DNA from: a virus
Direction: 5' to 3' (one strand)
Length of the DNA stretch: 25,455 nucleotides
Virus record (IMG/VR): IMGVR_UViG_3300046507_000062
Location: 1-25,455 of that record
The stretch's first letter is position 1. Each line of letters begins with the position of its first letter. Below the pieces are notes generated by a model. That model was not told the DNA's origin. It saw only the letters and a program-made list of their open reading frames with translations, and searched no databases. The position numbers and the translations under genes were made by a program. Shown here in pieces: positions 3,331 to 23,378 of the stretch.

Positions 3331-5487
3331 ATGGCACGCAAACGCAAATCCGACGCTGAATCGAGCGATCTCGATCCGATCGTCAAGGAAGCGAAGGATC
3401 GTTTCGCCCGTTGCGAGGATGCCGAGTCGTCGTTCCGCAAGCTGTTCGTCGAGGACATGAAGTTTGCCAACGGCGACCCGGACAACAACTGGCAATGGCC
3501 CGACCAGATCCGGCAATCGCGAGACGGCGACAACCGTCCGTGCCTGACGATCAACAAGGTGCGCCAGCACAATTTGCAGATCATCAACGACGCGAAGCAG
3601 AACAAGCCGAGCATCAAGACGCTGCCGATTGACGGGCAGGCCGATGTGCAGATCGCGAAGATTCTCGACGGCATCATGCGCCACATCGAGTACAACTCGC
3701 ATGCCGAGATCGCCTACGACACTGCGACTGAGTTCGCGGTGCAGGGCGGCTTGGGTTACTGGCGCGTCATCACGGACTATGCGCACGACGGGTCATTCGA
3801 GCAGGAAATATTCATTCGCCGCGTGAAAGACCCGCTGTGCGTCTATCTCGACCCGGACATTCAGTCCGCGGACGGCGCTGATGCGAAGTTCGGATTCGTG
3901 TTCGAGGACGTGCCGAAGGAAGAATACGAGGCGATGTACCCTGAGGAAGACCCGGCAAGCGTCACGTTCCCGATGGAAGCGACCGGAGACCCTTGGCTCG
4001 ACAAGAATCATGTGCGTGTGTGCGAATACTTCTACCGCGCCGAGAAGAAGGACATGCTGATCAATCATCCGGTCAAAGGGCCGATGAAGCTGTCCGAGGT
4101 CGCAGACGAGAAAGAGCGAGAGTCATTGCTCGACGATAAGGGCGTGAAGAAGCGCGAGATCAGCGAGCCGCATTTCAAGTGGTGCAAGATCGCCGGCGAC
4201 AAGATCATCGACAAGAAGGAATGGCCTGGCCGCTATCTGCCGATCGTGCGCGTGGTGGGCGAGGAAATCGTCATCAACGGCAAGGTCGAGCGAAAGGGCC
4301 ACACGCGCAACATGAAAGACGGCCAGCGCATGTACAACTACATGACATCGGCCAACGTCGAATACATCGCGTTGCAGACCAAGACGCCGTATGTCGCGCC
4401 GGTCGAAGCTATCGAAGGCTATGAGGACGAGTGGGCGAACGCGAACAGGGACAACAAGGCGTATCTGCCCTACAACGGCGTTGATGCTGAAGGTCGGGAG
4501 ATTCCCCGCCCGCAGCGCGAGCAGCCTCCTGTAGGCGCTTCTGCATACCTGCAAGCCATGCAAACGGCTCAGCAGGAACTCATGATGACCTCGGGCCAGT
4601 ATCAGGAGCAGTTCGGCGCGCCGTCGAACGCTGATGCTGGTGTGGCTATCGCCGCGCGTCAACGTCAGGGCGACAAGGCCACGTATCACTTCATCGATAA
4701 CGTGGCTCGAGCAATCCGCTACACCGGCCGCATCATGGTTGACCTGATCCCGAAGGTGTACGACACGGAACGCGTGGTTCGCATCGTCGGCGAGGACGGC
4801 AGCGAGGACTTCGCGCAGATCAATCCTGAGCAGCCGCATGCAGTTGGTACGCCTGACGGCGCGCTGGCGCAGATGCCTCCGCAAGGCGCCGAAAAGCCGA
4901 CAGCCGCGGAGTCCGCGCAACTGATCTACAACCCCGGCATTGGCCGCTATGACGTGACGGTAGAGGTCGGCCCGAACTACGAGACGCGCCGGCAGGAAGC
5001 ATTCCACGCGCTGACGCAGATCATGTCGCAGGATCAGGACTTGATGAAGGTCGCCGGCGATTTGTTGTTCAAGGCTGCGGACTTCCCGATGGCTGATGAA
5101 GTTGCTGAACGTCTGCATCGGACCATTCCGCCTGAAATCCTTGGCGAGGGCCAGAGCCCGCAAGAGCAGGACATGGAGCAGAAGATGCAGCAGATGGGCC
5201 AGATGATCGAGCATCTGACTTCTGAGTTGCAGGACGCGCGCGCTGGCAAGGATGCCGACGAAGTGCGAATCAAGGCATACGACGCGGAAACGAAGCGCTT
5301 GCAGGCGCTGGGTCAGCCGCTCGACCCGCAAGTCGTCGCGCATGTGGCAACTCAGGTCGTGATGCAGATGATGCAGACCGGAGCGCCAGAGGGAAATACT
5401 CCCTTGCCGCCCGAAGGCGCGCAGCAGAATCAACCCCAACCGAACCCGCCGAGCGCGGGTTTTTCTTTGCCCGCTCAACCTCAATAG
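3331..5487 (+). CDS. Portal protein, P22 gp1 type
   Basis: 718 residues, close to P22 gp1 (725 aa). The portal forms the dodecameric ring at the vertex through which DNA enters and leaves, and it binds the terminase and the gp4-like adaptor. The N-terminal part has the family pattern RPCLTINKVRQ at about residues 69-79, with FAVQGGLGYWRV at about 134-145. The C-terminal third is helical, including a Gln/Met-rich segment (EQDMEQKMQQMGQMIEHL) that fits the barrel helix seen in P22. The last ~25 residues are Pro/Gln-rich and are partly encoded by a terminator hairpin. It starts directly after the terL stop. Confidence 0.93.
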   Translation: MARKRKSDAESSDLDPIVKEAKDRFARCEDAESSFRKLFVEDMKFANGDPDNNWQWPDQIRQSRDGDNRPCLTINKVRQHNLQIINDAKQNKPSIKTLPIDGQADVQIAKILDGIMRHIEYNSHAEIAYDTATEFAVQGGLGYWRVITDYAHDGSFEQEIFIRRVKDPLCVYLDPDIQSADGADAKFGFVFEDVPKEEYEAMYPEEDPASVTFPMEATGDPWLDKNHVRVCEYFYRAEKKDMLINHPVKGPMKLSEVADEKERESLLDDKGVKKREISEPHFKWCKIAGDKIIDKKEWPGRYLPIVRVVGEEIVINGKVERKGHTRNMKDGQRMYNYMTSANVEYIALQTKTPYVAPVEAIEGYEDEWANANRDNKAYLPYNGVDAEGREIPRPQREQPPVGASAYLQAMQTAQQELMMTSGQYQEQFGAPSNADAGVAIAARQRQGDKATYHFIDNVARAIRYTGRIMVDLIPKVYDTERVVRIVGEDGSEDFAQINPEQPHAVGTPDGALAQMPPQGAEKPTAAESAQLIYNPGIGRYDVTVEVGPNYETRRQEAFHALTQIMSQDQDLMKVAGDLLFKAADFPMADEVAERLHRTIPPEILGEGQSPQEQDMEQKMQQMGQMIEHLTSELQDARAGKDADEVRIKAYDAETKRLQALGQPLDPQVVAHVATQVVMQMMQTGAPEGNTPLPPEGAQQNQPQPNPPSAGFSLPAQPQ
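5443..5464 (+). terminator. Intrinsic terminator inside the 3' end of the portal gene
   Basis: AACCCGC (5443-5449), loop CGAGC, and GCGGGTT (5455-5461) form a perfect 7-bp stem, followed by TTTCTTT. The hairpin codes for the portal tail NPPSAGF and lies 23 bp before the stop codon. Confidence 0.7.
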
Positions 5488-8438: not shown

Positions 8439-9154
8439 CGACCGGAACTGATCTGTTCATGATGGCGCTGAAGGATATCGGCGCGGTCGGCATCGGGCAG
8501 GCCATTTCGGCCGAAGATACGGCCGACGCGCTCGGGACACTGAACATGATGCTCGGCCAGTGGGATGCGGAGCGGTTGAGCGTCTATCACCTGGTCGATA
8601 CCGCGCATCAGGCGAACGGGTCAGTTTCCTACACGGTCGGTCTCGGTGGCGATTTCAATGTCACGCGCCCGGTCAAGATCAACGCGGCATACGCTCGCCT
8701 GCAAAGCAGCGGCGCGGGAAGTGCTGTCGATTACCGCATCACGATGATCGACGCGCGCGAGGACTATTCGCGCATCAGCCTCAAAACGCTCTCGTCGTTC
8801 CCCGAGTATGCGTTCTATGACTCGGCATTTCCGCTGGGCAACCTGTTCCTCTATCCGGTGCCGAACAGCAGCTACGAGCTGCACATCGTGACGATGGAGA
8901 CGCTGCCGCAGCTTGCCACGGCTGCCACTGTCATCAATCTGCCGCCCCCGTATCTCGCCGCGCTGCGCTACAACCTCGGGGTCTACCTGTGCCCGTCCTA
9001 TCAGCTTGAGCCGCCGCCCTCGCTGGTGCGGCTCGCGATGAACGCAAAGCGAGTGATCAAGCGCATGAATACGCAGATTCCGTCTTTGACGATGCCGCGC
9101 GGCCTGATGACGAAGTCGCGCTACAACATCTACAGCGACAACTCGAGCAACTAA
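8435..9154 (+). CDS. Tail accessory factor / head-tail adaptor, P22 gp4-like
   Basis: The gene starts at GTG 8435, overlapping the previous stop by 4 bp. The N-terminal pattern DLFMMALKDIGAVGIGQAIS followed by DALGTLNMMLGQWDAE is typical of the P22 gp4 family, which binds under the portal ring and connects it to the tail. At 239 residues it is longer than P22 gp4 (166 aa); the additional part is a central beta-rich stretch (about 65-165) before a helical region with PPYLAALRYNLGVYL. It overlaps the gp10-like gene by one base. Order portal-coat-gp4-gp10 agrees with P22. Confidence 0.88.
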   Translation: MTTGTDLFMMALKDIGAVGIGQAISAEDTADALGTLNMMLGQWDAERLSVYHLVDTAHQANGSVSYTVGLGGDFNVTRPVKINAAYARLQSSGAGSAVDYRITMIDAREDYSRISLKTLSSFPEYAFYDSAFPLGNLFLYPVPNSSYELHIVTMETLPQLATAATVINLPPPYLAALRYNLGVYLCPSYQLEPPPSLVRLAMNAKRVIKRMNTQIPSLTMPRGLMTKSRYNIYSDNSSN

Positions 9155-10578
9155 TGCGAGTCCCGCTCACAACCGGCGCATACCAGACGCGAAGCGTTAT
9201 TGCCGAGGCTCAGCGCTGCGTGAATCTGTACGCAGAGGCGAATCCTCAAGACGCGCCGTGTCCGTTCACCTACTACCCGACGCCGGGCCTGACGCTGGTA
9301 TCGACCCCGCCCGACTCAGGCGAAAGCCGCTGCATCTACACGGCGAGCAATGGCAACCGTTACGAGGCAGTCGGGCAGAACGTGTATTCGGTCAGTTCGA
9401 CGAACGTCTACACGCTCATGGGCGTTCTGGCGTCGCGTTCTGGTCCGGTATCGATGGTGGACAACGGAACCGATGTGTTCATCGTTGACGGCACTGCGGC
9501 AGGGTTCACGATAAACCTGTCATCGAATGTGATGACGCTGTGTTCCGACCCGGCGTTCTACGGCGCGGATAAGGTCGATCTGGTTGACGGATATTTCCTG
9601 TTCAATCGGCCAGGGACTACGCAGTTCTTTATCTCGCTGTTCGAAAGCGTGGCATTCGATCCGCTCGACATCGCGTCGAAATCGACCTATTCCGACAACC
9701 TGGTCACGCTTGCCGTGATGCACCGTGAAATCTGGCTGTTCGGCGAACTGACGACTGAGGTCTGGTACAACACCGGCGCGACGGATTTTACGTTTGGCCG
9801 CATGCCTGGCGTGTTCATCGAGCACGGGTGCGCGGCGAAACACTCGGTCGCGAAGATCGATCTGGCGCTATTCTGGCTCGGGAAAGACCTGCAAGGTCAG
9901 AACGTCGTTTTCGCCGGCCGCAATTACATGGCCGAGCGCATCTCAACGCATTCGATCGAGCAGGAATTTTCCAAGTATTCGCGCGTGGATGACGCGATAG
10001 GATTTTCGTATCAGCAGGGCGGCCACGCCTTCTATGTGCTGACGTTCCCGACTGCGAATGCCACTTGGTGCTTTGACGTCGTGACGCAGCAATGGCATCA
10101 GCGAGCCTATCTGGAAGACGATGGCACACTGAGCCGGCACCGGATGAACTGCCATTCATTCAACAACGGTCGCAATCTGGTCGGCGATTGGGAAACGGGC
10201 GCCGTCTATGCCCTCGATCAGAACGCCTACACCGATAACGGCGTGACGATGGAGTATATCCGCGCCTTCCCGCATATCCTGGGTGGCGACGGAAACCGCG
10301 TCATGTTCCGCCAGTTCATCGCGGATATGGAAGTCGGCAATGGGCTACCCGATGACTCAGCAGAGCCGGAAATCAGACTTCGCTGGAGCGATGACCGCGG
10401 CAGGAGTTGGGGAAACTTCATTCAGGGATCGCTGGGCAAGGTCGGTGCTTATCTGACATCGATCCAGTATCAGCGTCTTGGCTACGCGCGTGACCGCGTG
10501 TTCGAACTGTCGTGGTCTGCACCGGTGAAAACTGCATTGAATGGCGCATGGGTTGACGTGTCGAGGGCGCGCACGTGA
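9154..10578 (+). CDS. Packaged DNA stabilisation protein, P22 gp10-like
   Basis: 474 residues, almost the same length as P22 gp10 (472 aa). The family forms the hexameric tail hub below gp4 and closes the filled head. The N-terminus has the family pattern GAYQTRSVIAEAQRCVNLYAE with YYPTPGL at about 42-48. The rest is beta-propeller-like, with repeated strands and motifs such as EIWLFGELTTEVWYN. The start shares one base with the previous stop and the stop overlaps the next gene as GTGA. No frameshift or gap is seen. Confidence 0.9.
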   Translation: MRVPLTTGAYQTRSVIAEAQRCVNLYAEANPQDAPCPFTYYPTPGLTLVSTPPDSGESRCIYTASNGNRYEAVGQNVYSVSSTNVYTLMGVLASRSGPVSMVDNGTDVFIVDGTAAGFTINLSSNVMTLCSDPAFYGADKVDLVDGYFLFNRPGTTQFFISLFESVAFDPLDIASKSTYSDNLVTLAVMHREIWLFGELTTEVWYNTGATDFTFGRMPGVFIEHGCAAKHSVAKIDLALFWLGKDLQGQNVVFAGRNYMAERISTHSIEQEFSKYSRVDDAIGFSYQQGGHAFYVLTFPTANATWCFDVVTQQWHQRAYLEDDGTLSRHRMNCHSFNNGRNLVGDWETGAVYALDQNAYTDNGVTMEYIRAFPHILGGDGNRVMFRQFIADMEVGNGLPDDSAEPEIRLRWSDDRGRSWGNFIQGSLGKVGAYLTSIQYQRLGYARDRVFELSWSAPVKTALNGAWVDVSRART

Positions 10579-11081
10579 CCGAGGCGACCAACGCGAATAT
10601 CCCGCAGCCGAGCGCGTCGTTTCTCGTCGGTCGGCCCGAGCCAATCAGCCCGGTATGGTGGGCGTTCCTGCTTGCGCTGTTCCAGCGTTCAGGCGGCGGC
10701 GGTACGCCTACACCCGGCACGCAGATCGATTACTCGCCCCTGATCGACGCCCAAGCCATCTATCCGCTGTTCGCGCCCGCTGAGGACGCGCCTGCACCGG
10801 TTGCTTGGCAACCAGCAGCATTTGACTTTCCTCCGGAGGCTGTGGCGATACCTGCCTTTGCATCCGATCCGGTCGAGGACATTTTTACCGCCGGAACGAA
10901 CTTCACGCCCGGCACGACGACAGCGCTGACGCTCTCGAAGGTCTACGCGTCGAAGGCTGCGGTTCTCGTGCACTTCGATGCTTCGTTCCAGGCGACGGAT
11001 CAGTACAGCATCTCGGGAAACACGATCACCTTCACTTCGGCCATTCCGGTCGGCGTGTCAAAAGTCTATGCGCGAGGCTAA
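10575..11081 (+). CDS. Tail-associated protein sharing a C-terminal domain with the tail spike (168 aa)
   Basis: GTG start overlaps the gp10-like stop as GTGA. Residues 20-45 contain PEPISPVWWAFLLALFQRSGGG, similar to a short W-x-x-F-x-x-L-x-x-R-x-G-G motif I recall from small tail proteins. Residues 50-100 are Ala/Pro-rich. Residues 104-168 are a beta module (GTNFTPGTTTALTL ... IPVGVSKVY) that is clearly related to residues 103-165 of the tail spike. The gene holds the position of the P22 tail needle gp26 but lacks its long coiled coil. It is more likely an adaptor between hub and spike than a needle; this is inference. Confidence 0.75.
   Translation: MTEATNANIPQPSASFLVGRPEPISPVWWAFLLALFQRSGGGGTPTPGTQIDYSPLIDAQAIYPLFAPAEDAPAPVAWQPAAFDFPPEAVAIPAFASDPVEDIFTAGTNFTPGTTTALTLSKVYASKAAVLVHFDASFQATDQYSISGNTITFTSAIPVGVSKVYARG
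10884..11078 (+). repeat. Beta module copy 1 (shared with tail spike)
   Basis: Encodes residues 104-168 of the 10575 gene. It matches the segment at 17877-18065 at protein and DNA level; both contain ACGAACTT(T/C)AC near the start, followed by related ACGACGACA/GACGACAAC stretches and GCTGAC. In both copies the module has FDA(S/A)(F/Y)QA in the middle and IPVGV near the end. Confidence 0.75.
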
Positions 11082-11084
11082 AGC

Positions 11085-11417
11085 ATGACGACGAAATATC
11101 GGGAAATGGTGGCAGGGCAGACCCTGACGGGCTCTGCTGTCGCCTACTACACGACGCCCACATCGACCTATGGCGCTGTCCACGCGGTGAGCGTGTCGAA
11201 TCCCACTGGATCGCCGGTGACGGTCAATATCTACAAGGTGCCGAACGGCGGCACAGCGGGCTCGCCGACGAAGATCGGCAGCAAGGTTGTCGGCGCTGGC
11301 TTGACGGTCTCGATTCCCGAAGTCATCAATCACAAGCTCGAGCCCAGCACGCAGATTTTCGCCGATGGCCTCGCCTGCACGCTGAACGTCAGCGGCATTG
11401 AATACCTGCCGAGCTAA
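11085..11417 (+). CDS. Small beta-sandwich structural protein (110 aa)
   Basis: RBS GAGG lies 9 bp before the ATG, inside the end of the previous gene. The sequence looks like a small beta-sandwich: MTTKYREMVAGQTLTG, then VHAVSVSNPTGSPVTVNIYKV, with no catalytic motif. It sits among tail genes and is probably a virion component. The protein is of the same general type as the 5498 product but I see no clear sequence match between them. Function unknown. Confidence 0.75.
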   Translation: MTTKYREMVAGQTLTGSAVAYYTTPTSTYGAVHAVSVSNPTGSPVTVNIYKVPNGGTAGSPTKIGSKVVGAGLTVSIPEVINHKLEPSTQIFADGLACTLNVSGIEYLPS

Positions 11418-11987
11418 ATGAAACATTTCCTGCAAATAGCGTCAGGCGTAGATGTCGCGCCGCTCATCGCTGCGATCGATGCACAACCGGAACTGTGGGA
11501 CTCGCACCGGGAGCGAAAGGAATCGGATGGTAGTCCTCACGCGCGCATGTCCGACATCTGGGTCCGATACAACGACAAGGCTCGATACAAGGATCGCGAG
11601 TCGTTCAATGCGGAGCATGTTCCGGTCTGGTATCCAGCCTGGCACGCGCTGCCCGAGCTTCGCCCGGTCATCTTCGGGCTGATGGCTGCCGTGGACGGAG
11701 AAATGCTTGGGGGCGTCCTGATCACGCGCATTCCGCCAGGCGGCGGTATTGCACCGCATGTCGATCAGGGATGGCACGTCGAGTACTACGACAAGTTTTA
11801 TGTGTCGCTTCGCAGCGATCCGGGCGCGGAATTCTGGTGCGACCACGGCGGCATCGCAGAAGCGCTGAATCCGAAGGTCGGCGACATCTGGCGATTTGAC
11901 AACCGGAAGAATCATTGGGTCGAGAACAACAGCAGCACAGACCGCGTGACGCTGATCGTATGCATCCGCACGGACAAGTTCAAATGA
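11418..11987 (+). CDS. 2-oxoglutarate/Fe(II) oxygenase, aspartyl/asparaginyl beta-hydroxylase-like
   Basis: 189 residues with the complete metal and cosubstrate site of this fold: H114-V-D116 in GGGIAPHVDQGW, distal H166 in KNHWVENNSS, and R176 ten residues later for 2-oxoglutarate. Family members hydroxylate protein Asp/Asn side chains or related substrates using O2 and 2-oxoglutarate. All key residues are present, so it is probably active. No signal peptide, so it acts in the cytoplasm. The ATG follows directly after the previous stop and the stop overlaps the cupin gene as ATGA. Its place between tail genes and ejection genes suggests that a virion protein, or the linked cupin pathway, supplies the substrate; this is inference. 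Confidence 0.85.
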   Translation: MKHFLQIASGVDVAPLIAAIDAQPELWDSHRERKESDGSPHARMSDIWVRYNDKARYKDRESFNAEHVPVWYPAWHALPELRPVIFGLMAAVDGEMLGGVLITRIPPGGGIAPHVDQGWHVEYYDKFYVSLRSDPGAEFWCDHGGIAEALNPKVGDIWRFDNRKNHWVENNSSTDRVTLIVCIRTDKFK

Positions 11988-12289
11988 TCGATCTGCATAT
12001 CAAGCACTTCTTTTCGGGGCGTGAGTACGCCAAACAGATGACGCTGCCGGCCGGTCACTATGCCGAGACACACGAACATATTTACGACCACATTTCGATC
12101 CTTGCGCAGGGCGAAGTGATGGTCACGATAGACGGCGCACCTGAGAAACACCTTGGACCGACCGCGATCGTGATCCCGGCGAACTGCAAACACCGCATTG
12201 ACGCGATCACCGATTCAGTCTGGTTCTGCGTGCATGCGACCGATGAAACCGACCCCGAAAAGGTCGACCAAGTTCTGATTAAGGGGTGA
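11984..12289 (+). CDS. Small single-domain cupin (101 aa)
   Basis: The ATG at 11984 overlaps the oxygenase stop (ATGA); a longer reading from 11915 would be out of context. Cupin motif 1 is intact in spacing: G24-x5-H30-x-H32-x3-H36-x6-G43, with His in place of the usual Glu. Motif 2 is P65-x-N67-x2-H70. These would give a metal site made of His30, His32, His36 and His70. Small cupins may be dioxygenases, isomerases or simple binding proteins, so the reaction cannot be told. Close coupling to the oxygenase suggests they work on the same or related substrate. Confidence 0.82.
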   Translation: MIDLHIKHFFSGREYAKQMTLPAGHYAETHEHIYDHISILAQGEVMVTIDGAPEKHLGPTAIVIPANCKHRIDAITDSVWFCVHATDETDPEKVDQVLIKG

Positions 12290-12293
12290 CGCC

Positions 12294-13043
12294 ATGCCAT
12301 GGGGATTTGCTGCCGCCGCAGTCGGTTCGATCGCTGGAGCGGTGATCAGTGGTGACGCGTCCAAGAGTGCTGCTAACACGCAGGCTCAAGCCGCCGAAGA
12401 CGCTGCTCACCTTCAGAACGACCAGTACAACACCACCCAAGCCAACCTTAAGCCTTACATGGACTTGGGGGCTAGCTACATTGACCCGCTCAAGAACGCG
12501 CTCGCCAATTCGATGCTGACGAAGCAGTTCACAGCGCCGAATACCGCTGATGCCATGTCGGCGCCCGGTTATCAGTTCACGCAGCAGCAAGGTCTGAAAG
12601 CGGTGCAGAACAGCGCGGCCGCGCGGGGGCTTGGCGTCTCTGGTGCTGCGATGAAGGGTGCTGCGAGCTATGCCACTGGCCTCGCCGATTCAACGTACAA
12701 CGACGTGTTCAACCGTGCGTTGCAGACGTTCAACACGAACTACAGCAGCGCGGCGAACAACGTCAACCGGCTCACGAACATCGTTGGCAGCGGCCAGAAC
12801 GCGGCGGCGACGAATGGTTCTCTCGGAGCGCAGGCGGTCGGCAACATCGGCAACACGCTCACGAGTGGCGCGAACGCCGTCGCATCGGGCACGATTGGCA
12901 GTGCGAACGCGCTTGCTTCCGGATTGAATGGGGCCGGCAACAGTGCGCTGACCTATGGGCTCATGACGAACAACGCCAGCACGTCAAACGCCGCGGCCGC
13001 AGGGACTACTACCGGCGCCAATCAATACGGCTTCACGGTCTAG
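12294..13043 (+). CDS. DNA ejection (transfer) protein, gp7-like
   Basis: 249 residues with RBS GGGGTGA. The N-terminus is a small hydrophobic segment (MPWGFAAAAVGSIAGAVISG), followed by a long helical Ala/Gln/Asn-rich region. The patterns APGYQFTQQQGLKAVQN and ARGLGVSGAAMKGAASYATGLADSTYN match a family annotated as DNA transfer or injection protein in P22-like and other podoviruses. These proteins are packaged in the head and are released into the cell envelope to form a DNA conduit. It begins a block of three ejection genes in the position of P22 genes 7, 20 and 16. Confidence 0.82.
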   Translation: MPWGFAAAAVGSIAGAVISGDASKSAANTQAQAAEDAAHLQNDQYNTTQANLKPYMDLGASYIDPLKNALANSMLTKQFTAPNTADAMSAPGYQFTQQQGLKAVQNSAAARGLGVSGAAMKGAASYATGLADSTYNDVFNRALQTFNTNYSSAANNVNRLTNIVGSGQNAAATNGSLGAQAVGNIGNTLTSGANAVASGTIGSANALASGLNGAGNSALTYGLMTNNASTSNAAAAGTTTGANQYGFTV

Positions 13044-13051
13044 AGGGAAAA

Positions 13052-14488
13052 ATGCCAATCGACCCCAGCATCGCTCTGAACGCGAACCGTCCTGCCCCTA
13101 TCAATCCTCTGCAACAGGCACTATCAGTTGCGCAGTATCGCGCTATTAATGCAAGTGGCATGGCTCAGCAACAACAACTTGCAGCGAACCGTGCCACGTC
13201 CGCAGCCTACCAACAGGCGACCGATCCGAATACCGGGCAGGTAGATAACAATAAGCTCGTCGGTATCCTGTCTCAGAATCCCGATGCGGCATATAACCTG
13301 CCTCAAGTCATTCAGGGAATCGGTGCGCAGAAGCAGCAGCAGACCACGCTGAACACGACGAATTTCGACCTCGCGATGAAGCAGAACGGATTCCTGAATC
13401 AGCGGCTAGGGGCCATTGATCCGGCGTCGCCGACGTTTCAGGCAGACGTTATGCGTACCGCGACAGACTTCGTGCACAACTTTCAGGGTGATCCGCAGAA
13501 GGTGCAAGGCCAACTCTCGGATCTTCCGCCGCTCGGATCGACGCCTCAGCAAAATTCGCTCTGGTTGCAACGGCACCTCGCGGCAATCGGCGCTGTCGGC
13601 GAGCAACTGAAATCACTTCAGCCCCAGTTTGCACCCGTCAACACAGGCCCGGCGACTGTTGCGGTCAATCAGAACCCGTTGGCGCTCGGCGGTGTCGGCT
13701 CGGTCGGCTATACGGTCCAGAACGGGCTCTCAAAGAGTGAAGCGCTTGCGCCAGGGGTCACGATCAACCAGGGCGGCCAGCCGGTCACGTACACGAAGGG
13801 CCAAATGGATTCCGGTCAGGTTCCGCAGCAGCAAGGCGGCGGCTATCAGACGGCTCCCCCGATGGGCGCGCAGGGTATCGCCGATGCTGCCGGTCAACGC
13901 TATAGCTCGCTTCAGCAGGCCGCAAGCCAGGCCAAGCCGCTCATGCAGACCTACGACATGGCGGCTCAGGCTCTGCAAGGCACGATCGCCGGCAAGGGTG
14001 CAGCCGCGGCGCTGAATGTCCCCGCACTGCTGAACACGTTCGGCATTCAGGCTGGATCGGATTCTGTTAAGAACAATCAGCTTCTCGTGAACTACCTGAA
14101 CAGTGCCGCCGATCAGGCTGCATCCTCGCTCGGTCTATCAGGCAGTGATTCACGTCTTGCCGCGGCGAAGGCGGGCCAGCCGGACCCGGCACACATGAAC
14201 GCGCCGGCCCTGCTCGAGTCGATCCAGCATGTGAAGGGTCTGCAACAGGCTGTTCTAGACCGTCAGCAGGCTACGACCAACTTCCTCGCGCAGAACGGCA
14301 ACAACACGAGCGCGCTCCCGCAGTTCGAAACGAAGTGGAACCAGTCGTTTAATCCTGATGTGTCCTACGTTCGCTCGCTCGGCGATCCCGCTGCGCAGCA
14401 GGCCGCCATGCAGAAACTGAAGACTGAAGGAAAGCTTCAGCAGTGGACGAAGGACTATCAGGCCATGAAGGCGCTCGGGGCGTTCTGA
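13052..14488 (+). CDS. Putative internal virion / DNA ejection protein (478 aa)
   Basis: RBS AGAGGGAAAA lies directly before the ATG. The protein is Gln/Ala-rich and largely helical, starting MPIDPSIALNANRPAPINPLQ and containing long QQ-rich stretches at about 35-60 and 255-300. No enzymatic motif is seen. Length (478) is close to P22 gp20 (471 aa) and it lies between the gp7-like and the largest ejection gene, which is the P22 gp20 position. The stop shares one base with the next start. Identification is mainly by composition and position. Confidence 0.7.
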   Translation: MPIDPSIALNANRPAPINPLQQALSVAQYRAINASGMAQQQQLAANRATSAAYQQATDPNTGQVDNNKLVGILSQNPDAAYNLPQVIQGIGAQKQQQTTLNTTNFDLAMKQNGFLNQRLGAIDPASPTFQADVMRTATDFVHNFQGDPQKVQGQLSDLPPLGSTPQQNSLWLQRHLAAIGAVGEQLKSLQPQFAPVNTGPATVAVNQNPLALGGVGSVGYTVQNGLSKSEALAPGVTINQGGQPVTYTKGQMDSGQVPQQQGGGYQTAPPMGAQGIADAAGQRYSSLQQAASQAKPLMQTYDMAAQALQGTIAGKGAAAALNVPALLNTFGIQAGSDSVKNNQLLVNYLNSAADQAASSLGLSGSDSRLAAAKAGQPDPAHMNAPALLESIQHVKGLQQAVLDRQQATTNFLAQNGNNTSALPQFETKWNQSFNPDVSYVRSLGDPAAQQAAMQKLKTEGKLQQWTKDYQAMKALGAF

Positions 14489-17337
14489 TGCCGGACATTC
14501 AAGGGTTCATCCAGCAATATGCGCCGGTCGCGGCGAGCGTCGGCCAGAGGATCGGTGTCGCTCCTGATGTGCTGCTCGGGCAATGGGGACTTGAGACGGG
14601 ATGGGGCAAGTCGGTCATTCCCGGCACGAACAATCTCGGCAACATCAAGGGACCGGGCGTCGCCGCGACGGATAACCAGACTGGCTCGAATGACCAGTAT
14701 CGCGCGTATGCGAACCCACAGGCGTTCGGCAACGACTTCGCGAACCTGATCAGCAGCAACTACAAGGGAGCCGTTGGAGCGGGTTCTGATGCGTCTGCAT
14801 ATGGCAAAGCGCTGAAGGCAGGCGGCTACGCAGAAGATTCGGCTTATGCAAACAAGCTGGCCGGTGCCGTTGGAATGGTGAGGAAATTCGGGGATGCGGT
14901 TGCGTCTGCCATCTCAGGGACTGCCAACGCTGCCGAACTCAGCCCGCAGCAGATGAGTGCACCCGTCATCTCGGCTACTGGACAACAGATCATGCCGCAA
15001 GCAAAACCGCAGACGCCTTCCACCTCGCCGGCCACCTCGTCGTCGCCGGCATCGACCGGCGATCCATTGCTAGACATGGCGCATGGCGTGATGTCAGGCT
15101 CTACAGCGGCGTCGTCAACTCCCGCCACGGCATCGGCACAAGCCGCTGATGATCCTCTGCTCGCGATGGCGAATAGCGTGATGTCGGCCAAGGATGCGCC
15201 GAAGGCCACGCAGCCGGCGAAGTCTGCACAAGCTGGCCCGGCCCCGGTGACGGTGGGCAATGCCATTGGCGCCGCTGTCGAACCGCTTGCAACGCTCGCG
15301 ACGGGTGCAATTGCAACGCCTATTAGTACCATCGCGCGCGTCGGTGCTGCGGCATTGCCCGGAGTCTCGTTCGACCGCGCGAAGCAGATCGGTGAATCCG
15401 TCCAGAATGCGCTCACCTATCATCCGCAGACGGCCGGCGGCCAACAGGCCAATGCTGACATCGGGCGCGTGGCTAACAACGCGCTCGGCGTCATCACCAA
15501 CAGCGCGCCGGTCCAGACTCTGACGAATGCCTATCAGCAGAACTTCGTGCAGAACCAAGGTCCGCTGATGGGGACGATCAACGATGTGATTCCCAGTGCA
15601 ACAGCGCAGATCGTCGCGCCGGAATTGATCGGCCGCGCCAATGGCCTCGTCAAGTCGATCGGCCGCGCTGATGTGCCTGCACCGACTCCCGGCAGCGTTG
15701 AGCTGGCCAATCGTGGCGTCGGACCTGTTCCGCAGGGGATTCAGCAAGCTCCGGTAGGACAGATACCAGTCGCGCCGGCCGCTAATGACCTGTCGGCCAT
15801 TCTCAAGGCAGACCAACCGGTCGCGGCGCCTCCTCCTGCCTCGACGATTGCGCGCGCGCCGAATGATGCGGTTGGAATCAACCGTGTTGCGGTCAACGAT
15901 GCGAGTGGCGGCCGTCCCGATCTTCCGCAGGCGCCATCGACGCAACTCGTTCCGGCCAGCGCCGCGGCGAACGACACCAGCAAGGCCGTTCCTGCTGCTC
16001 CGCCTGCCGTGCCCGCCGAAGTGCCGAAGTTCGACGACTCGACTCCATCGACCGTCAAAGCCTCGCTCGCGCCTGACCAGCAGCAGAAGAATCTGGACCT
16101 GATGCGCGAAGTTGGCCTGACGCAGACGCGGCCGAGCGCAATTTCCGGTGACAAGTTCTCGGCCGGCAACGAATACCAGCTCGCCAAGACTGATACGCCA
16201 CAAGGCGAAGTGCTGCGCGCGCAGTTCGACAAGGAACGTACCGCGCTAGACAGCTATTCCCAGCAGATCGCTCAGGACACTGGCGCTCGATCCGCCTCTC
16301 CCGAAGAGGCCGGCCAGATCATCCGTCAGCCGCTGCGCGACCTGAACGACTATTACGACAGCGCCGTAAAGGGCGTCTACCAGGCGGCCGATCAGCGCGC
16401 GGGCGGCATCGCTGGCATCGACGCGGATTCGTTCAAGTCGATGATGGATACGAAATCGAACTTCGCCGGCAAGTCGGAAAACGGCGCGCTCGGCCGCGGC
16501 ATCAATGCGTATCTGAAAGAGCAGGGCATTCGCAATGCAGATGGCTCCTTCAACCCGATGACGGCGAAGCAGGCCGAAGGTGTTCGCCAGTACATCAACG
16601 GCCAATGGTCTCCGCAGAATTCAGGGCTAATCGGGAAGATCAAGGAAACGCTCGATACGGATGTTGCGAAGTCGGCCGGTGACGACATCTACGCACAGGC
16701 CCGCGCTTTACATGCTGAGCGCAAGAATGTGCTCGACAACCCGAAAGGCATTTCCTCGCTGCTCAATGAGGAAGGGCCGAACGGTATAAACCAGATCGTG
16801 CCCGATGAGAAGGTCGGACAGAAACTGACTTCGATGCCGGTCGGCCAGCTTCGCCATATTGTCGAGACTCTGAAGAATGCACCTGAACCGCTTCAGCCAA
16901 CGGCTCAGCAGGCTCTGTCCGAGATGAAGGGGGTATTTGCGGACGCGGTGAACAAAGCCGGTCAGGGCGCCGAATGGAACGCTGCCAGGGTGACGAAGCA
17001 GTTGAATGATCAGCGCTCGCGTATGGGGCTGCTGTTCGATGATGCAGAAATGAGCCGATTCCGCACGCTGAACGATGCCGGGCACGTCCTGCAAAAGCCG
17101 ACTGCCTATCCCGGCGCCGCGGTGCAGGGTCATAACCTGCTTCAGAAGGCTGTCATCTGGGCGCCGACTGCCGCAACGACTGGTGCTGCCTCTGCGCTGT
17201 TCGGGCCGCTCGGTGCTGCGGTGGCGGCTCCAGCAGGGGCTGCATTGACGAGAAAGGCGACGGAGTTCGTCAACCGGCGCGCGGCCAACAAGCTATCGGA
17301 ATCGCTGTCCAATCCACGCGTCGATTGGGACAAGTAA
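14488..17337 (+). CDS. Ejection protein with N-terminal FlgJ/GH73-like murein hydrolase domain (949 aa)
   Basis: The ATG at 14488 overlaps the upstream stop (TGATG). Residues about 10-135 resemble the FlgJ/GH73 glucosaminidase fold: IGVAPDVLLGQWGLETGWGKS with likely catalytic E36, then NNLGNIKG. This domain would open peptidoglycan during DNA entry. Residues 140-600 are low-complexity and rich in A, P, S and Q, with two copies of D-P-L-L-x-M-A-x-x-V-M-S at about 192-203 and 222-233. The remainder is helical. A hydrophobic Gly/Ala segment near the C-terminus (WAPTAATTGAASALFGPLG) could insert in the membrane. It fits the P22 gp16 position but is larger (gp16 is 609 aa). Confidence 0.82.
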   Translation: MPDIQGFIQQYAPVAASVGQRIGVAPDVLLGQWGLETGWGKSVIPGTNNLGNIKGPGVAATDNQTGSNDQYRAYANPQAFGNDFANLISSNYKGAVGAGSDASAYGKALKAGGYAEDSAYANKLAGAVGMVRKFGDAVASAISGTANAAELSPQQMSAPVISATGQQIMPQAKPQTPSTSPATSSSPASTGDPLLDMAHGVMSGSTAASSTPATASAQAADDPLLAMANSVMSAKDAPKATQPAKSAQAGPAPVTVGNAIGAAVEPLATLATGAIATPISTIARVGAAALPGVSFDRAKQIGESVQNALTYHPQTAGGQQANADIGRVANNALGVITNSAPVQTLTNAYQQNFVQNQGPLMGTINDVIPSATAQIVAPELIGRANGLVKSIGRADVPAPTPGSVELANRGVGPVPQGIQQAPVGQIPVAPAANDLSAILKADQPVAAPPPASTIARAPNDAVGINRVAVNDASGGRPDLPQAPSTQLVPASAAANDTSKAVPAAPPAVPAEVPKFDDSTPSTVKASLAPDQQQKNLDLMREVGLTQTRPSAISGDKFSAGNEYQLAKTDTPQGEVLRAQFDKERTALDSYSQQIAQDTGARSASPEEAGQIIRQPLRDLNDYYDSAVKGVYQAADQRAGGIAGIDADSFKSMMDTKSNFAGKSENGALGRGINAYLKEQGIRNADGSFNPMTAKQAEGVRQYINGQWSPQNSGLIGKIKETLDTDVAKSAGDDIYAQARALHAERKNVLDNPKGISSLLNEEGPNGINQIVPDEKVGQKLTSMPVGQLRHIVETLKNAPEPLQPTAQQALSEMKGVFADAVNKAGQGAEWNAARVTKQLNDQRSRMGLLFDDAEMSRFRTLNDAGHVLQKPTAYPGAAVQGHNLLQKAVIWAPTAATTGAASALFGPLGAAVAAPAGAALTRKATEFVNRRAANKLSESLSNPRVDWDK

Positions 17338-17570: not shown

Positions 17571-19730
17571 ATGCAAATCCTCCCGAACGCGAAGTCGCAG
17601 TTCATTGACCAGAACGGGCTTCCCTTGGCAAGCGGCACAGTGGGGTTCTATTTCCCCGGCACGCTGAACCCGAAGCCGACATATCAGGACGCGGCCGGCA
17701 CGATCGCCAACACCAATCCTGTCACGCTCGATAGCCGCGGTCAGGCGCTTATCTGGGGCTCGGGCGTTTATCGCCAGATCGTCAAGGACTCGTCGGGTGT
17801 CACGATCTGGGATCAGGTAACAGAGGATTCCAATTCGGGCCTGGTAGGCAACATCACGGATGCGAAGTATGTCAGCGGCACGAACTTTACTCCGGGGGTG
17901 ACGACAACGCTGACCCTTCCGATCGCGCCGGGTGCTTCGGCGAACATGTGGGTGTTCTTCGACGCTGCATATCAGGCCGACGACCAGATGTCGGTTTCAG
18001 GGACGACGCTCACGTTCAACAGTCCGATCCCGGTGGGCGTGCAAGAGGTCAACGTCAAGATCGGGACAACCATCGCGATCGGCACTCCCAACCCTGGCTC
18101 AGTGACCGACGCCTCTGTTTCCAGCGGCAGCGCGCTCTACAACCGCATCAACAACTTCATCGACGTGACGGACCCGCGCTTTGGTGGCAAGGTCGACGGC
18201 GTCACGGACGATACCAGCGCCATTCGCGCGGCGGTCGTCTATGCCTCATCGAGGGGCGGCGGTACGGTGTTTATCCCGCATGGCACGACAGTCGTTTCAT
18301 CGTCGATCGTGGTTCCGTCGAACGTGACGATTTGCGGCGATTCGATGTACGCCACGACGGTTACTGTCCCGTCGAACGCAACCGGTTTCAATGGCTTCAA
18401 TCCGAATGCGGTTTTTATCCTGAACGGCAACAACTGCGGCATTCGTGATCTCGGCATGGACGGGAATATCGCGAACAATGCCGCGCAGGCTTTCGGAGCG
18501 GTTTCGAATACCTTGCCGGTGTCCGGCCTGTTTGTCGAAAACTGCTATATCCGCAACTTCATCTACAACGGCATCATCCTCAATCCGGCAACCGGCAGCG
18601 TGTCGAACTACAGGTTCAACCGCAATAGGCTGGAAAATATCGGGTGGGGCGGCATCACCGCCTATTGCTCGACGAATGGGGAGATCAAGGACAACTCCAT
18701 CATCAGTTGCGGCTCGAGCGCAATCCAGACGGGCTACAACTCTAACATCAGCAACTTCACGGTGGCACAGTACGTTGTCATCGAGGGCAACTACGTCAAC
18801 CGCGCCACGCCTCCTACCCATATCGTCAGCAGCGCGGCAGAGAACGGGTTCATGATCGTGGTCGGCGCAGGGGATCAGTACATCACGGTCTCCAACAACA
18901 TCTGCTACGACAACCGCAATGCAGGGAATGACGGAATCGGCCTCGGCCAGGATGGAACACGTTCGAACGAGGGGCTCGTATTCGATTCCAACGTCGTCAT
19001 CTACGCGGGCCTGTTTGGCATCGACGTAAGCTCCAATCACATCGTCAGCAACAACTACATCAGGTTCTCGTCACAGCAGGGCATCAAGCTCGGCACTGAC
19101 CTCGGCGGGAACCTCGCGAATGCGACGGTGGTGGACAACATCATCGATTCCTGCAACTTCGCCGGGAATGGATCTCAGGACGGCATCTGGGTCGATGCGA
19201 CGTTGACCGCAAGTATCCCGACTGCGCTATACGAAAACATCAAGATCAACGGTAACCGGGTGATCGACTTCAACCCGACGCCGCATACGATTTTCGGCCT
19301 GAATATCGGGTTTCGCAGCAACCTGACCTACCTGAATTGCGAGTTTTGCGACAACGATTTTTCGCAATTGACTGGCGTCAACGGTAACGCGTTCCAGGCG
19401 TCGGGGCCGAGCGCGAATTATGTTGGCTGGTCATTCAGGAAAAACAAACACCCAGTCCCACTTCCGGCCATCGCCGGGACGGCCCCGTTAATCATGGGGC
19501 TCGATGCGGCAACCGTTGTAAACGGAGGTGCCACGAACCTAACAAACTTTGTCGGCGGATTCGACGGGCAGGAATTCACAGTTCAGTCCGGCAACGCGAA
19601 CACGACGTACATCAATGGTTTGGGCATTTCGATTCACAACAGTGTGAATCAACCAACTACCGCATCTTCGATTTATAAGTTCTTCAAATACGCGTCGATC
19701 TGGTATCTGAACCAGTTCTATACGCCTTAA
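17571..19730 (+). CDS. Tail spike with head-binding, adaptor and pectate-lyase-like beta-helix domains (719 aa)
   Basis: Residues 1-85 (MQILPNAKSQFIDQNGLPLA ... VYRQIVKDSSGVTIWDQ) are the common N-terminal particle-binding domain related to that of the P22 tailspike. Residues 103-165 are the beta module also found in the 10575 gene. From about 198 the pattern VTDPRFGGKVDGVTDDTSAI begins a pectate_lyase_3 right-handed beta-helix, with repeated short N-x-I/V strands up to about 620 (for example ENCYIRNF, GNYVNRA, DSNVVIY). The C-terminal ~90 residues form a separate beta domain. It would bind and probably cleave surface polysaccharide; a specific catalytic residue is not evident to me. RBS GAGG 7 bp before the start. 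The holin follows 13 bp after the stop. Confidence 0.88.
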   Translation: MQILPNAKSQFIDQNGLPLASGTVGFYFPGTLNPKPTYQDAAGTIANTNPVTLDSRGQALIWGSGVYRQIVKDSSGVTIWDQVTEDSNSGLVGNITDAKYVSGTNFTPGVTTTLTLPIAPGASANMWVFFDAAYQADDQMSVSGTTLTFNSPIPVGVQEVNVKIGTTIAIGTPNPGSVTDASVSSGSALYNRINNFIDVTDPRFGGKVDGVTDDTSAIRAAVVYASSRGGGTVFIPHGTTVVSSSIVVPSNVTICGDSMYATTVTVPSNATGFNGFNPNAVFILNGNNCGIRDLGMDGNIANNAAQAFGAVSNTLPVSGLFVENCYIRNFIYNGIILNPATGSVSNYRFNRNRLENIGWGGITAYCSTNGEIKDNSIISCGSSAIQTGYNSNISNFTVAQYVVIEGNYVNRATPPTHIVSSAAENGFMIVVGAGDQYITVSNNICYDNRNAGNDGIGLGQDGTRSNEGLVFDSNVVIYAGLFGIDVSSNHIVSNNYIRFSSQQGIKLGTDLGGNLANATVVDNIIDSCNFAGNGSQDGIWVDATLTASIPTALYENIKINGNRVIDFNPTPHTIFGLNIGFRSNLTYLNCEFCDNDFSQLTGVNGNAFQASGPSANYVGWSFRKNKHPVPLPAIAGTAPLIMGLDAATVVNGGATNLTNFVGGFDGQEFTVQSGNANTTYINGLGISIHNSVNQPTTASSIYKFFKYASIWYLNQFYTP
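17877..18065 (+). repeat. Beta module copy 2 (shared with the 10575 gene)
   Basis: Encodes tail spike residues 103-165 (TNFTPGVTTTLTLP ... SPIPVGVQEV). See the copy at 10884-11078. Both the order of conserved residues and parts of the DNA sequence agree, pointing to shared ancestry by duplication or recombination. Confidence 0.75.
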
Positions 19731-21198: not shown

Positions 21199-22121
21199 CC
21201 ATGAAAAGAATCCTCACCGCTCTCGCGCTGGCATGCGCTGCTGTTTCCTCGTTCGGAGCCACGCTCAACCCGGTGCAGTTGCTCAATCCGGCCGGATCGA
21301 GTTCAGGCCAGGCGATCATCTCGACAGGGGCATCGACTGCACCCGCATGGGCGAATGTGCAGGTTGCGAACGTGACTGGTGCGGCGCCGTCTGCGTCGCC
21401 CAACCTGACGGGTGTCTTAACGATCACGAATTCAGCGACAAGCGGCGGCACGATCGTCGTTAACGCCACTGGCAATACCGGATCGGGCGCAGCGATTGTC
21501 CTCGGAGGCAACGGAGTTACAACGCCGAACAAGTTTATCCGCGCGTTCAATGGTGCATTCCAGATCGTCAACAGCGCGAACAGCGCGACGCCGATGTCGA
21601 TGGACGACGCCGGCAATGTGACGTTCTCGGGAAGCGTTACTGGAACCGCAGGATCGTTTTCGACGCTCTCTGCGTCAGGTCTGATCTCTCCGTCGAGCAC
21701 GGTTGGAATCAAAGGAACAACCGCGGCTGACAATGCGAATGCGGGCAGCGTTGGCGAGTTCCTGACGGCCACCGGAACTGGTGTTTCCCTGACCAGTGGG
21801 ACGACTGCCAATATCACGAGCATCGTGCTGACTGCGGGTGATTGGGACGTGAGCGGGAACGTCGAATTTATATCAGCTGCCGGCACGATAATTACAATCG
21901 CCCAAACTACGGTTACGACGACGAGCGGGGCGAATGGAACTAACGGTATTAGAGGGATAAACAGCGCTACTCAGGCGGCATCGAACAACCTTTCACTGGT
22001 AGCGCCGGTACAGCGGTTCAACGTCTCAGGATCAACCACAGTTTTTCTGACTGCTACCGCGAGTTTCAGCACGAGCACGCTGACAGCTACCGGAGTTATT
22101 CGCGCACGACGCGTCCGCTGA
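21195..22121 (+). CDS. Fibre-like protein with predicted Sec signal peptide (308 aa)
   Basis: Start ATG 21195 overlaps the upstream stop; ATG 21201 would give the cleaner signal MKRILTALALACAAVSSFG. The likely cleavage is after residue 21 (SFG, then ATL). The mature part is Ser/Thr/Gly/Ala-rich and looks like phage fibre sequence: LNPAGSSSGQAIISTG near the start, repeats of short beta-strands, and a C-terminal domain of the type WDVSGNV ... FSTSTLTATGVIRARRVR found on phage structural proteins. A signal peptide on a fibre-like protein is unusual, because virion proteins assemble in the cytoplasm. It may be exported to the cell surface. Its 3' end overlaps the convergent acyltransferase gene by 26 bp. 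Confidence 0.78.
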   Translation: MTMKRILTALALACAAVSSFGATLNPVQLLNPAGSSSGQAIISTGASTAPAWANVQVANVTGAAPSASPNLTGVLTITNSATSGGTIVVNATGNTGSGAAIVLGGNGVTTPNKFIRAFNGAFQIVNSANSATPMSMDDAGNVTFSGSVTGTAGSFSTLSASGLISPSSTVGIKGTTAADNANAGSVGEFLTATGTGVSLTSGTTANITSIVLTAGDWDVSGNVEFISAAGTIITIAQTTVTTTSGANGTNGIRGINSATQAASNNLSLVAPVQRFNVSGSTTVFLTATASFSTSTLTATGVIRARRVR

Positions 22122-23193
22122 TTGCCGTGTGAATCTCTCGCGGACGGCGGTGCATGAATGGCTGTTCGATCAGCCGGTGCGCCGCCTCTGCCAATACCAA
22201 CGTCGCGGTCGCGAAGATTAGAAACGAGACGACCGGGCGTTCGGCAAACCATCCATGCCTGAGCATCGTCCGCACGACGCTGCCGTGGCACAGATAGAGG
22301 GCATAGCTCCGGGTGCTGAACCAGCCGATCACCTTCGATTCTCCGCCCGCTTCCAGATGCGCCCATGACTGGAAATACGCCCACACGACAATAGCCGCGA
22401 AGGACGCCGAGGCGAGCGAGAAAGAAAACGCGCGCAGGAAGAATACGCCGACGTCGATCCGGCCCATCAGTATCTGGATGGTTGCGAACACGCCGGCCGC
22501 GCCCGCGAGGCCGATCACGTTCTTCCAGTAACGCATGCCGACCGGGAACGTCCGCACGGCCCAGATAGCCAGAATCCCGAAGGCAATGGCGTCGAGCCGC
22601 AGCGCGACGATGCGGCGCACGTACAGGTCAAAATCCGTGCTCGGATCGTAGAACCATATGCGCAGGGCGAGCGGGACGACGATGAGGGTCACCGCGATAA
22701 CCAGAATCCGCGTGCGCGCCGGCACGCCGACGAGCACCGCGAACATGGCCGGGAAGATCAGATAGAACCACTCTTCGATGGCCAGTGACCAGCTCTCGTG
22801 ATACCACTGCGCCAGCATCGGCCACGCGAGATTTTGCAGGAACAGGAGGTAAGCGAGGCACTTCGCTGACCACACCTTGTCCAGCGTGATCCCGTAAATG
22901 GTGACGAATGCCGATGCCACGAAGAAGACGTAGTAGAGCGGCAGGGTGCGCATCCACCGGCGCACATAGAAATTCAGGCTGACGCGCCACGAAAAGCCAC
23001 GCTCGAAGTCACGCAGGATAATCCCGCCGATCAGGAATCCGCTCAGCGCAAAGAATATCTCGACGCCGAGATCGCCGGTAACGTAGATCAGTTGCGGCAC
23101 ATCCTTGAGCGCGAACGCGGAGTAGTGCACGGCGAGCACCGGCAGGATGGCGAACATGCGCACCACATCCAGCCCGAAGTTTCGGTTCTTCAT
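22096..23193 (-). CDS. Acyltransferase family 3 (OafA/YrhL-like) membrane protein
   Basis: 365 residues starting at MKNRNFGLD, with RBS AAGGAAAG just upstream; a longer reading to 23223 runs through that RBS. The family motif R-x10-H is present (R12 and H23 in VRMFAILPVLAVH). About ten hydrophobic spans follow, as expected for an inner-membrane O-acyltransferase that acetylates surface polysaccharide. The motif SWSLAIEEWFYL at about 134-145 is typical. It is on the opposite strand to the late operon and forms an operon with the small membrane gene upstream (ATGA overlap). It probably modifies O-antigen or other glycan in lysogens and so alters phage adsorption. Confidence 0.9.
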   Translation of the reverse strand: MKNRNFGLDVVRMFAILPVLAVHYSAFALKDVPQLIYVTGDLGVEIFFALSGFLIGGIILRDFERGFSWRVSLNFYVRRWMRTLPLYYVFFVASAFVTIYGITLDKVWSAKCLAYLLFLQNLAWPMLAQWYHESWSLAIEEWFYLIFPAMFAVLVGVPARTRILVIAVTLIVVPLALRIWFYDPSTDFDLYVRRIVALRLDAIAFGILAIWAVRTFPVGMRYWKNVIGLAGAAGVFATIQILMGRIDVGVFFLRAFSFSLASASFAAIVVWAYFQSWAHLEAGGESKVIGWFSTRSYALYLCHGSVVRTMLRHGWFAERPVVSFLIFATATLVLAEAAHRLIEQPFMHRRPREIHTAISGRVVRE

Positions 23194-23378
23194 TTGCTCT
23201 TTCCTTGGCGCCACCAGTCCCATTCACTCCACACCCACAGGAGGATGCCGGTGCCGCTGATCATCCATGTCTCGGTCGGGAGCTGCGCGCCTGACAGCAT
23301 CCATAGGATGGATGCGACGGACACTGCGCCCGCTGACCGGACGACAATCTTGATGTAAAGGGGCGGCTGATCGTTCAT
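23190..23378 (-). CDS. 62-aa membrane protein upstream of the acyltransferase
   Basis: The ATG at 23378 starts MNDQPPLYIKIVVRSAG. Two hydrophobic spans are seen at about 13-30 and 38-51, with a polar, tryptophan-rich end (VWSEWDWWRQGKSK). The stop overlaps the acyltransferase start as ATGA, so both are translated together. The reading frame is open upstream through the tRNA fragment, but that part is non-coding by context. It might help the acyltransferase, for example as a small partner or flippase-like subunit; no family is recognised. No strong promoter is visible; TAGACT at 23408-23413 (minus strand) is a weak -10 candidate. Confidence 0.68.
   Translation of the reverse strand: MNDQPPLYIKIVVRSAGAVSVASILWMLSGAQLPTETWMISGTGILLWVWSEWDWWRQGKSK

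Follow-up and report, generated by a model that had tools for sequence, protein, structure and literature searches.

Introduction

Small genes located between the tail-tube or head-closure genes and a gp14/gp7-like ejection gene are present in several known phages. First, gene 13 of T7 lies between gene 12 and gene 14, and gp13 of epsilon15 occupies the same slot, belongs to the same family (PHROG 308, PF11090) and has a record that carries an HHpred GNAT note. Second, gene 14 of P22 (DUF2824, PHROG 651) is found directly before gene 7. These genes encode small proteins with a head morphogenesis annotation, and T7 gp13 is named 'probable scaffold protein' in Pfam. For phiPsa17, a T7-like phage, gp14-gp16 were named as virion proteins and gp13 was absent from the list (PMC4517105), as expected for a factor acting at the time of assembly. 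The slot is empty in phiKMV, and a cupin is located exactly in the gene-13 position of vB_SnaP-R1, a T7-family member of the Autographiviridae. Regarding the ejection protein, a host protease cuts the N-terminal 20 residues off P22 gp7 before assembly (PMC4992974), and deletion of this leader is tolerated, with a burst of about 60% (PMC8402733).

The window analysed in the present study, i.e. the whole 25,455-base stretch of a virus record, comes from a temperate short-tailed phage with a tyrosine integrase and carries, in this slot, a 2OG-Fe(II) oxygenase gene followed by a cupin gene. The preliminary description of this DNA held that neither enzyme fits a known podovirus assembly function; as regards position, this was incorrect, as the pair stands where gene 13 stands in T7 and gene 14 in P22. 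Pseudomonas phage PfAn1 and Limnohabitans phage DC33 both carry an orthologous oxygenase (33% identity) in this slot upstream of the ejection gene; unlike in the window, a GNAT replaces the cupin and the ejection protein begins with M-V or M-G instead of M-P. In Bordetella phage BPP-1, the genes bbp24-bbp23-bbp22 encode a GNAT, a His-less cupin and a small Ala-rich protein, followed by a head-tail adaptor; in contrast to the window, this locus contains neither oxygenase nor metal His, and the downstream protein begins with M-S. Ab31 was also considered and was a false lead.

Enzymes dedicated to one component of a large assembly are exemplified by the RimI/RimJ/RimL acetyltransferases and the ribosomal 2OG oxygenases (YcfD). 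However, their targets are host ribosomal proteins, not phage ejection proteins, and no case is known among them in which the type of enzyme changes along with the first substrate residue. Cupin-fold metal enzymes acting on protein N-termini are represented by ADO and the plant cysteine oxidases, which act on N-terminal Cys through a three-His site, whereas the cupin of the window has a four-His site and its proposed N-terminus is Pro.

The oxygenase and cupin genes

The genes of this region lie on the plus strand. The head-closure gene Hc3 (9154-10578; PHROG 578, the P22 record naming gp10 likewise) is followed by two genes for small appendage-like proteins, of which the second (11085-11417) belongs to PHROG 20100, a family with no assigned function. 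The oxygenase gene (11418-11987), the cupin gene (11984-12289), the ejection gene (12294-13043) and the gene for a second protein in the gp20/gp15 position (13052-14488) come next. The cupin ATG (11984) lies inside the ATGA (11984-11987) that ends the oxygenase gene, and the pair was thus correctly described as overlapping and as lying between tail and ejection genes. The ejection protein (249 aa, N-terminus M-P-W-G-F-A-A-A-A-V-G) is of the P22 gp7 family and matched PHROG 598 ('DNA ejection') at E 1e-34, compared with E 2e-95 for P22 gp7 itself; its match to Pfam P22_gp7 reached only E 0.38. An NCBIfam search returned no useful name.

The oxygenase (189 aa) matched PF05118 (Asp_Arg_Hydrox; Asp/Asn beta-hydroxylase or cis-proline-hydroxylase-like) with 28.7 bits in the Pfam profile search, above the curated cut-off of 22.6. 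The full H114-x-D116...H166...R176 site reported for it at the outset was confirmed and is conserved among relatives: H114, D116 and H166 are identical in 84 of 84 oxygenases, and position 176 is Arg in 77 of 84. The AlphaFold2 model is a double-stranded beta-helix of very high confidence. In the profile search, the nearest solved proteins were L-proline cis-4-hydroxylase (E 3e-7) and proline 3-hydroxylase (E 1.5e-5), and the best Foldseek matches were 4p7w, 6n1f and 7v4f, followed by PHD2 and AspH, placing the oxygenase by fold nearest to L-proline cis-4-hydroxylase and a Burkholderia 2OG oxygenase. L-proline cis-4-hydroxylase (4P7W), proline 3-hydroxylase (1E5R) and AspH are its closest solved relatives by profile and fold, but identity over the fold is only 14-18% and the phage oxygenase is shorter. 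The known substrates of this group are free proline and EGF-like domains, and the phage enzyme is likened to the group by sequence and fold. PADLOC gave a single weak generic 2OG match (E 0.0036) in surroundings without defence context. A role in DNA or RNA repair and an identity as a CRISPR-associated 2OG protein were both considered and rejected.

The cupin (101 aa, Cupin_2) is a single domain, which matched PF07883 marginally in the Pfam profile search (27.7 bits, cut-off 27.2). The classical cupin motif provides three His and one Glu as metal ligands; here there are four His (H30, H32, H36 and H70), with His36 in the position of the Glu. The His-rich site that had been noted previously is nearly invariant, as H30, H32 and H36 are retained in 57 of 57 oxygenase-linked cupins and H70 in 56 of 57, and all four His are present in each of 90 full-length non-redundant four-His cupins (53 adjacent to an oxygenase and 37 others). 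Structure prediction, which had been suggested for both proteins, also gave a confident double-stranded beta-helix for the cupin, slightly below that of the oxygenase in its scores. Foldseek returned 3fjs, TM1459, KdgF and CelOCE (cellulose oxidative enzyme), small cupins of different or unassigned activity, and this fold search pointed to no specific reaction.

The cupin also matched PHROG 12032 and PHROG 24280, which bear short tail fibre/adhesin names, at E values of about 1e-16 (5e-17 and 2e-16, respectively). Cupins in JX880072, NC_009990, NC_005357 and other records are likewise named 'short tail fiber protein/adhesin'. These names and the GenBank/RefSeq labels are the basis for regarding the cupin as a tail-fibre adhesin, as annotated in several phages. 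However, the protein is a 101-residue single cupin domain without fibre sequence, and a cupin holds the gene-13 position in a T7-family phage; we consider the adhesin reading barely credible. A paper discussing such a label in phiAP1 calls it not validated (PMC8703784), and no experiment behind the label was found in the literature searched. The cupins that bear this name in public databases are probably slot proteins with a wrong label.

A four-His cupin of the same family is found at 4950-5315 in Xanthomonas phage Elanor, a phage of another family, in the early/replication region with no ejection operon around it. The function of that cupin must differ from that of the cupins in ejection operons.

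Slot occupants in related phages

The oxygenase is common in viral contigs, with 131 relatives, and is also found in prophage-like loci of Paraburkholderia and Cupriavidus; P. kirstenboschensis LMG 28727 (L237) and C. basilensis KF708 (L238) harbour prophages of the related type. Among 105 non-redundant oxygenase loci, 51 have an adjacent cupin (directly downstream in 47 and directly upstream in 4), about 30 have a GNAT acetyltransferase downstream, and the remainder have neither. Close relatives of the window were also sampled by the head-closure gene rather than by the cassette itself, giving 73 loci with an ejection gene. These comprised oxygenase with GNAT in 42, oxygenase with cupin in 10, cupin alone in 10, GNAT alone in 6 and other contents in 5, and the slot before the ejection gene was filled in all 73. 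This split shows that the oxygenase-cupin pair is real and recurrent and is yet one of several combinations. The pair had been presented as coupled. The linkage itself held among related phages, as did the catalytic residues, but an exclusive coupling did not, with GNATs outnumbering cupins by 42 to 10 among the closest relatives and four-His cupins occurring also at loci without an oxygenase. The constant feature is the position directly upstream of the gp7/gp14-like ejection gene; the pair is conserved and not obligate.

Alternatives found in the slot include a GNAT acetyltransferase, a His-poor cupin and the oxygenase alone, and the cassette precedes a gp7/gp14-like gene across unrelated podovirus lineages. 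Four-His cupins without an oxygenase precede gp14/gp7-like genes even where the upstream gene is a terminase (terL) or a tail fibre gene. Since the position is kept despite these different upstream genes, the cupin goes with the ejection gene and not with the tail genes. Two oxygenase subfamilies track the partner in the slot, differing by G99R, K126R, Y128H and C182D: oxygenases with a cupin or alone carry G99/K126/Y128/C182/W119/W71, and those with a GNAT carry R99/R126/H128/D182, while H114, D116, H166 and R176 are constant. The slot GNATs are variable in their profile matches; against PF00583 (cut-off 20.7 bits), that of DC33 scored 24.0 bits and that of the close relative L089 scored 14.1, below the cut-off, and a slot GNAT matched the acetyltransferase family PHROG 1249 at 1e-10.

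In a profile comparison of T7 gp13 and P22 gp14 with the cupin, oxygenase and slot-GNAT profiles, no sequence similarity was detected, and by sequence the cassette of the window falls outside the T7 gp13 family. Homology between T7 gp13 and the slot GNATs was considered and set aside for lack of signal in this comparison, the GNAT reading of gp13 resting on the epsilon15 HHpred note.

Two further kinds of cassette protein were seen. At nine oxygenase loci (L024, L034, L046, L052, L058, L061, L076, L080 and L239), a small P-loop protein with a PRSxTAW-type motif lies upstream and is a cassette member where both cupin and GNAT are absent; read by eye it is weakly sulfotransferase-like, with a sub-threshold Pfam match (E 0.038). 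At L130, L147, L148, L149 and L151, the slot contains a fourth kind of protein. The member tested matched no Pfam or PHROG family convincingly; the C-terminal part may be a truncated GNAT and looks similar to T7 gp13.

Slot occupant and residue 2 of the ejection protein

The identity of the slot occupant was compared with residue 2 of the downstream ejection protein at 230 non-redundant loci, which are related to each other and for which ejection-gene starts were picked by a scoring heuristic. With a four-His cupin in the slot, residue 2 is Pro in 77 of 83 loci. With a GNAT, it is Gly (37), Val (26), Ala (25) or Cys (4), accounting for 92 of 92 loci, and Pro is never found (0/92). With a His-poor cupin, it is Ser (32) or Thr (3) in 35 of 38, and where the oxygenase is the last gene in the slot it is Pro in 13 of 17. 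Intact metal sites go with Pro. The association was retained when each ejection-protein family was counted once per combination (cluster-level Fisher p = 1.6e-7). The exceptions with a four-His cupin were L214, L216 and L217, which have Met-Ala, L038 and L039, which have an uncertain start, and the Elanor cupin (L087), which lies outside a structural operon. T7-family gp14 proteins begin with Met-Cys in 17 of 17 cases, and P22 gp7, which begins with Met-Leu, is outside the rule. A retest was made on loci fetched after the rule had been stated; the queries were a His-poor cupin and two GNATs, it covers two of the three rules, and a few of its loci are further stretches of earlier contigs. The GNAT rule held in 65 of 65 loci (Pro 0/65), and Ser or Thr followed a His-poor cupin in 25 of 28.

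Several controls were consistent with a signal located at the N-terminus. The mutual information between slot type and residue is 1.37 bits at residue 2 (z 36), falls to 0.52 bits at residue 3 and is near background at residues 8-9; at residue 2 of the next protein along, encoded in the window at 13052-14488, it is 0.39 bits (z 4.6). All four Pro codons are in use at residue 2. The upstream ORF does not reach codon 2 in 94% of loci with four-His cupins and in 41% of those with His-poor cupins, and the His-poor rule is weaker on this control because codon 2 more often overlaps the upstream ORF. On a tree built from the ejection-protein body (residue 36 onward), at least 16 switches of occupant were observed, with Pro in 37 of 37 four-His loci, Gly, Ala, Val or Cys in 32 of 32 GNAT loci and Ser in 15 of 16 His-poor loci, i.e. 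a single mismatch in 85 cupin or GNAT loci. The rule also holds inside single genomes, two of which contain two modules: L073 has a GNAT followed by M-G and an oxygenase with a four-His cupin followed by M-P, and zth2-2 has a His-poor cupin followed by M-S and a GNAT followed by M-G.

The limits of the exchange are visible when the window is compared with L089. The two are near-identical up to the oxygenase ATG, the stop codon of the small appendage-like gene (11085-11417) marking the left edge of the exchanged cassette, and then diverge through the oxygenase, the slot enzyme and the beginning of the ejection gene, which in the window amounts to about 20 codons (12294-12353) that include the Pro codon at 12297-12299. 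The ejection proteins re-converge thereafter (29/40 identical over residues 21-60, 169/189 beyond). This divergence indicates that the unit of exchange is the oxygenase, the slot enzyme and the N-terminal segment together. As the slot gene borders directly on the start of the ejection gene, co-inheritance could account for some of the correlation. Taken further, recombination would carry the slot gene along with the 5' part of its downstream neighbour without any direct action of one on the other, and the match would be a frozen accident of a few founder cassettes; the exchange boundaries, which take in the first codons of the ejection gene, favour this explanation. However, the rule spans unrelated ejection-protein families at the cluster-level significance given above and survives the switches on the tree with one mismatch, the information is mostly in residues 2-7 although the exchanged segment is longer, and the Pro codons vary. 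Co-inheritance as a full explanation is accordingly regarded as improbable.

The same data bear on the possibility that the late operon accommodates genes for metabolism or for action on the host (auxiliary metabolism, modification of a surface glycan or small molecule). For 2OG-Fe(II) oxygenases of cyanophages, a part in metabolism or DNA repair has been suggested (PMC3037559), and the closest solved relatives of the present oxygenase act on free proline. The strict position before the ejection gene despite varied upstream genes (terL, tail fibre, Hc3) and the residue-2 match are difficult to reconcile with this possibility, which we disfavour as very improbable. Host-surface modification was considered and rejected. 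As to the targets that had been suggested at the outset, nothing supports a small molecule or surface glycan; the idea of a virion-protein target fared better in part, the ejection protein being favoured by position and by the residue-2 match, and nothing supports the tail or spike. A scan of the virion proteins (Hc2, Hc3, the products of the genes at 10575 and 11085, Ej1-Ej3 and the spike) for conserved residues dependent on the oxygenase yielded only a weak pair, S74/Q75 in Ej2.

Both the slot and the families of these proteins were already known. In the literature searched, which was mostly outside subscription journals, neither a description of the cassette nor a swap of enzyme type matched to the N-terminal residue of the ejection protein was found.

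Proposed role of the cassette

Herein, we propose that the oxygenase and cupin together form one variant of an exchangeable 'N-terminus cassette' that serves the downstream P22-gp7/T7-gp14-like ejection protein, a proposal that we consider somewhat better founded than not. On the best reading of the sequences, the exposed N-terminus of this protein, which would be the client or substrate, is recognised and probably also modified by the cassette, and the pairing of occupant swaps with changes of the first residue suggests that the enzymes recognise or modify this end. The L-proline hydroxylases among the solved relatives of the oxygenase and the division of its subfamilies by slot partner are in favour of this proposal. 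Pro, Ser, Thr, Gly, Ala, Val and Cys are small residues of the kind exposed by methionine aminopeptidase. As nearly all residues found at position 2 permit removal of the initiator Met, residue 2 is expected to be exposed. Gly, Ala, Val and Cys are typical targets of N-alpha-acetyltransferases and Pro is not, and a GNAT as the occupant for the Gly/Ala/Val/Cys group fits for this reason.

The proposed mechanism would be as follows. The slot protein would recognise the exposed N-terminus during assembly and modify it where its active site is intact. The GNAT may be a dedicated N-alpha-acetyltransferase acting on Gly, Ala, Val or Cys, and the oxygenase and the metal-bound four-His cupin may act on the N-terminal Pro-Trp segment, the simplest order being hydroxylation by the oxygenase and then binding or oxidation by the cupin. 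Ser/Thr N-termini would be bound, and not modified, by the His-poor cupin. The aim might be to control a hydrophobic, Ala-rich N-terminal segment of a protein that has to be packaged into the head before its insertion into the host envelope. Oxygenases are found together with GNATs as well, next to ejection proteins with Gly, Ala or Val N-termini, so that the N-terminal residue is not necessarily what the enzyme acts on. The Met-Leu start of P22 gp7, the tolerated deletion of its leader and the empty slot of phiKMV also speak against the proposal. By analogy, the cassette may work like the dedicated ribosomal-protein modification enzymes, and the N-terminal cleavage of P22 gp7 offers a precedent for a special N-terminus in this protein family.

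Alternatively, the slot proteins might be dedicated assembly chaperones. In this case, the hydrophobic, nascent N-terminus of the ejection protein would be bound by the cupin and GNAT folds and brought by them to the procapsid, the residue match would reflect recognition of shape, and the metal of the four-His cupin would be structural or would coordinate the N-terminal Pro. This explanation accounts for the residue match nearly as well as modification does, and catalytic evidence alone separates the two. His-poor cupins in the same slot obey their own residue rule without a full metal site, the slot GNATs score weakly against catalytic GNAT models, and both the Pfam name of T7 gp13 and its absence from the phiPsa17 virion list (PMC4517105) are consistent with such a role. 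However, the invariance of the four His in 90 cupins and of H114, D116 and H166 in every oxygenase goes beyond what binding needs, and a chaperone role is hard to see for an oxygenase whose 2OG site is complete. We consider chaperones without catalysis possible but rather unlikely.

If the N-terminus cassette is right, it would represent phage-encoded post-translational maturation of the DNA-ejection machine, would assign a first substrate to an extensive family of 2OG oxygenases and cupins from phages, and would set right the 'short tail fibre adhesin' label of these cupins. The residue match also offers a concrete and cheap hypothesis for the slot gene in T7 and P22, namely N-terminal recognition or modification. 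In a broader and more tentative form, short-tailed phages might use a modular N-terminal modification code, in which P, S/T or G/A/V/C is exposed and an adjacent cassette supplies the matching enzyme, with T7 gene 13 and P22 gene 14 as members. The N-terminal chemistry of the ejectosome would then be a general step in podovirus infection.

Other genes of the window

Three further features of the window deserve mention. The C-terminal 64 residues of the small appendage protein encoded at 10575-11081 correspond to a domain at residues 100-163 of the tail spike (17571-19730), with 53% identity and E 5e-17, and this common domain is probably a virion-attachment or oligomerisation module. The large ejection-side protein encoded at 14488-17337 has an N-terminal glucosaminidase domain (E 2.5e-19), for which a peptidoglycan-opening function similar to that of T7 gp16 is possible. 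Finally, an Acyltransferase_3 membrane protein (E 8e-23) is encoded on the minus strand at 22096-23223, between the lysis-side genes and the integrase, and is a candidate lysogenic-conversion (surface acetylation) gene.
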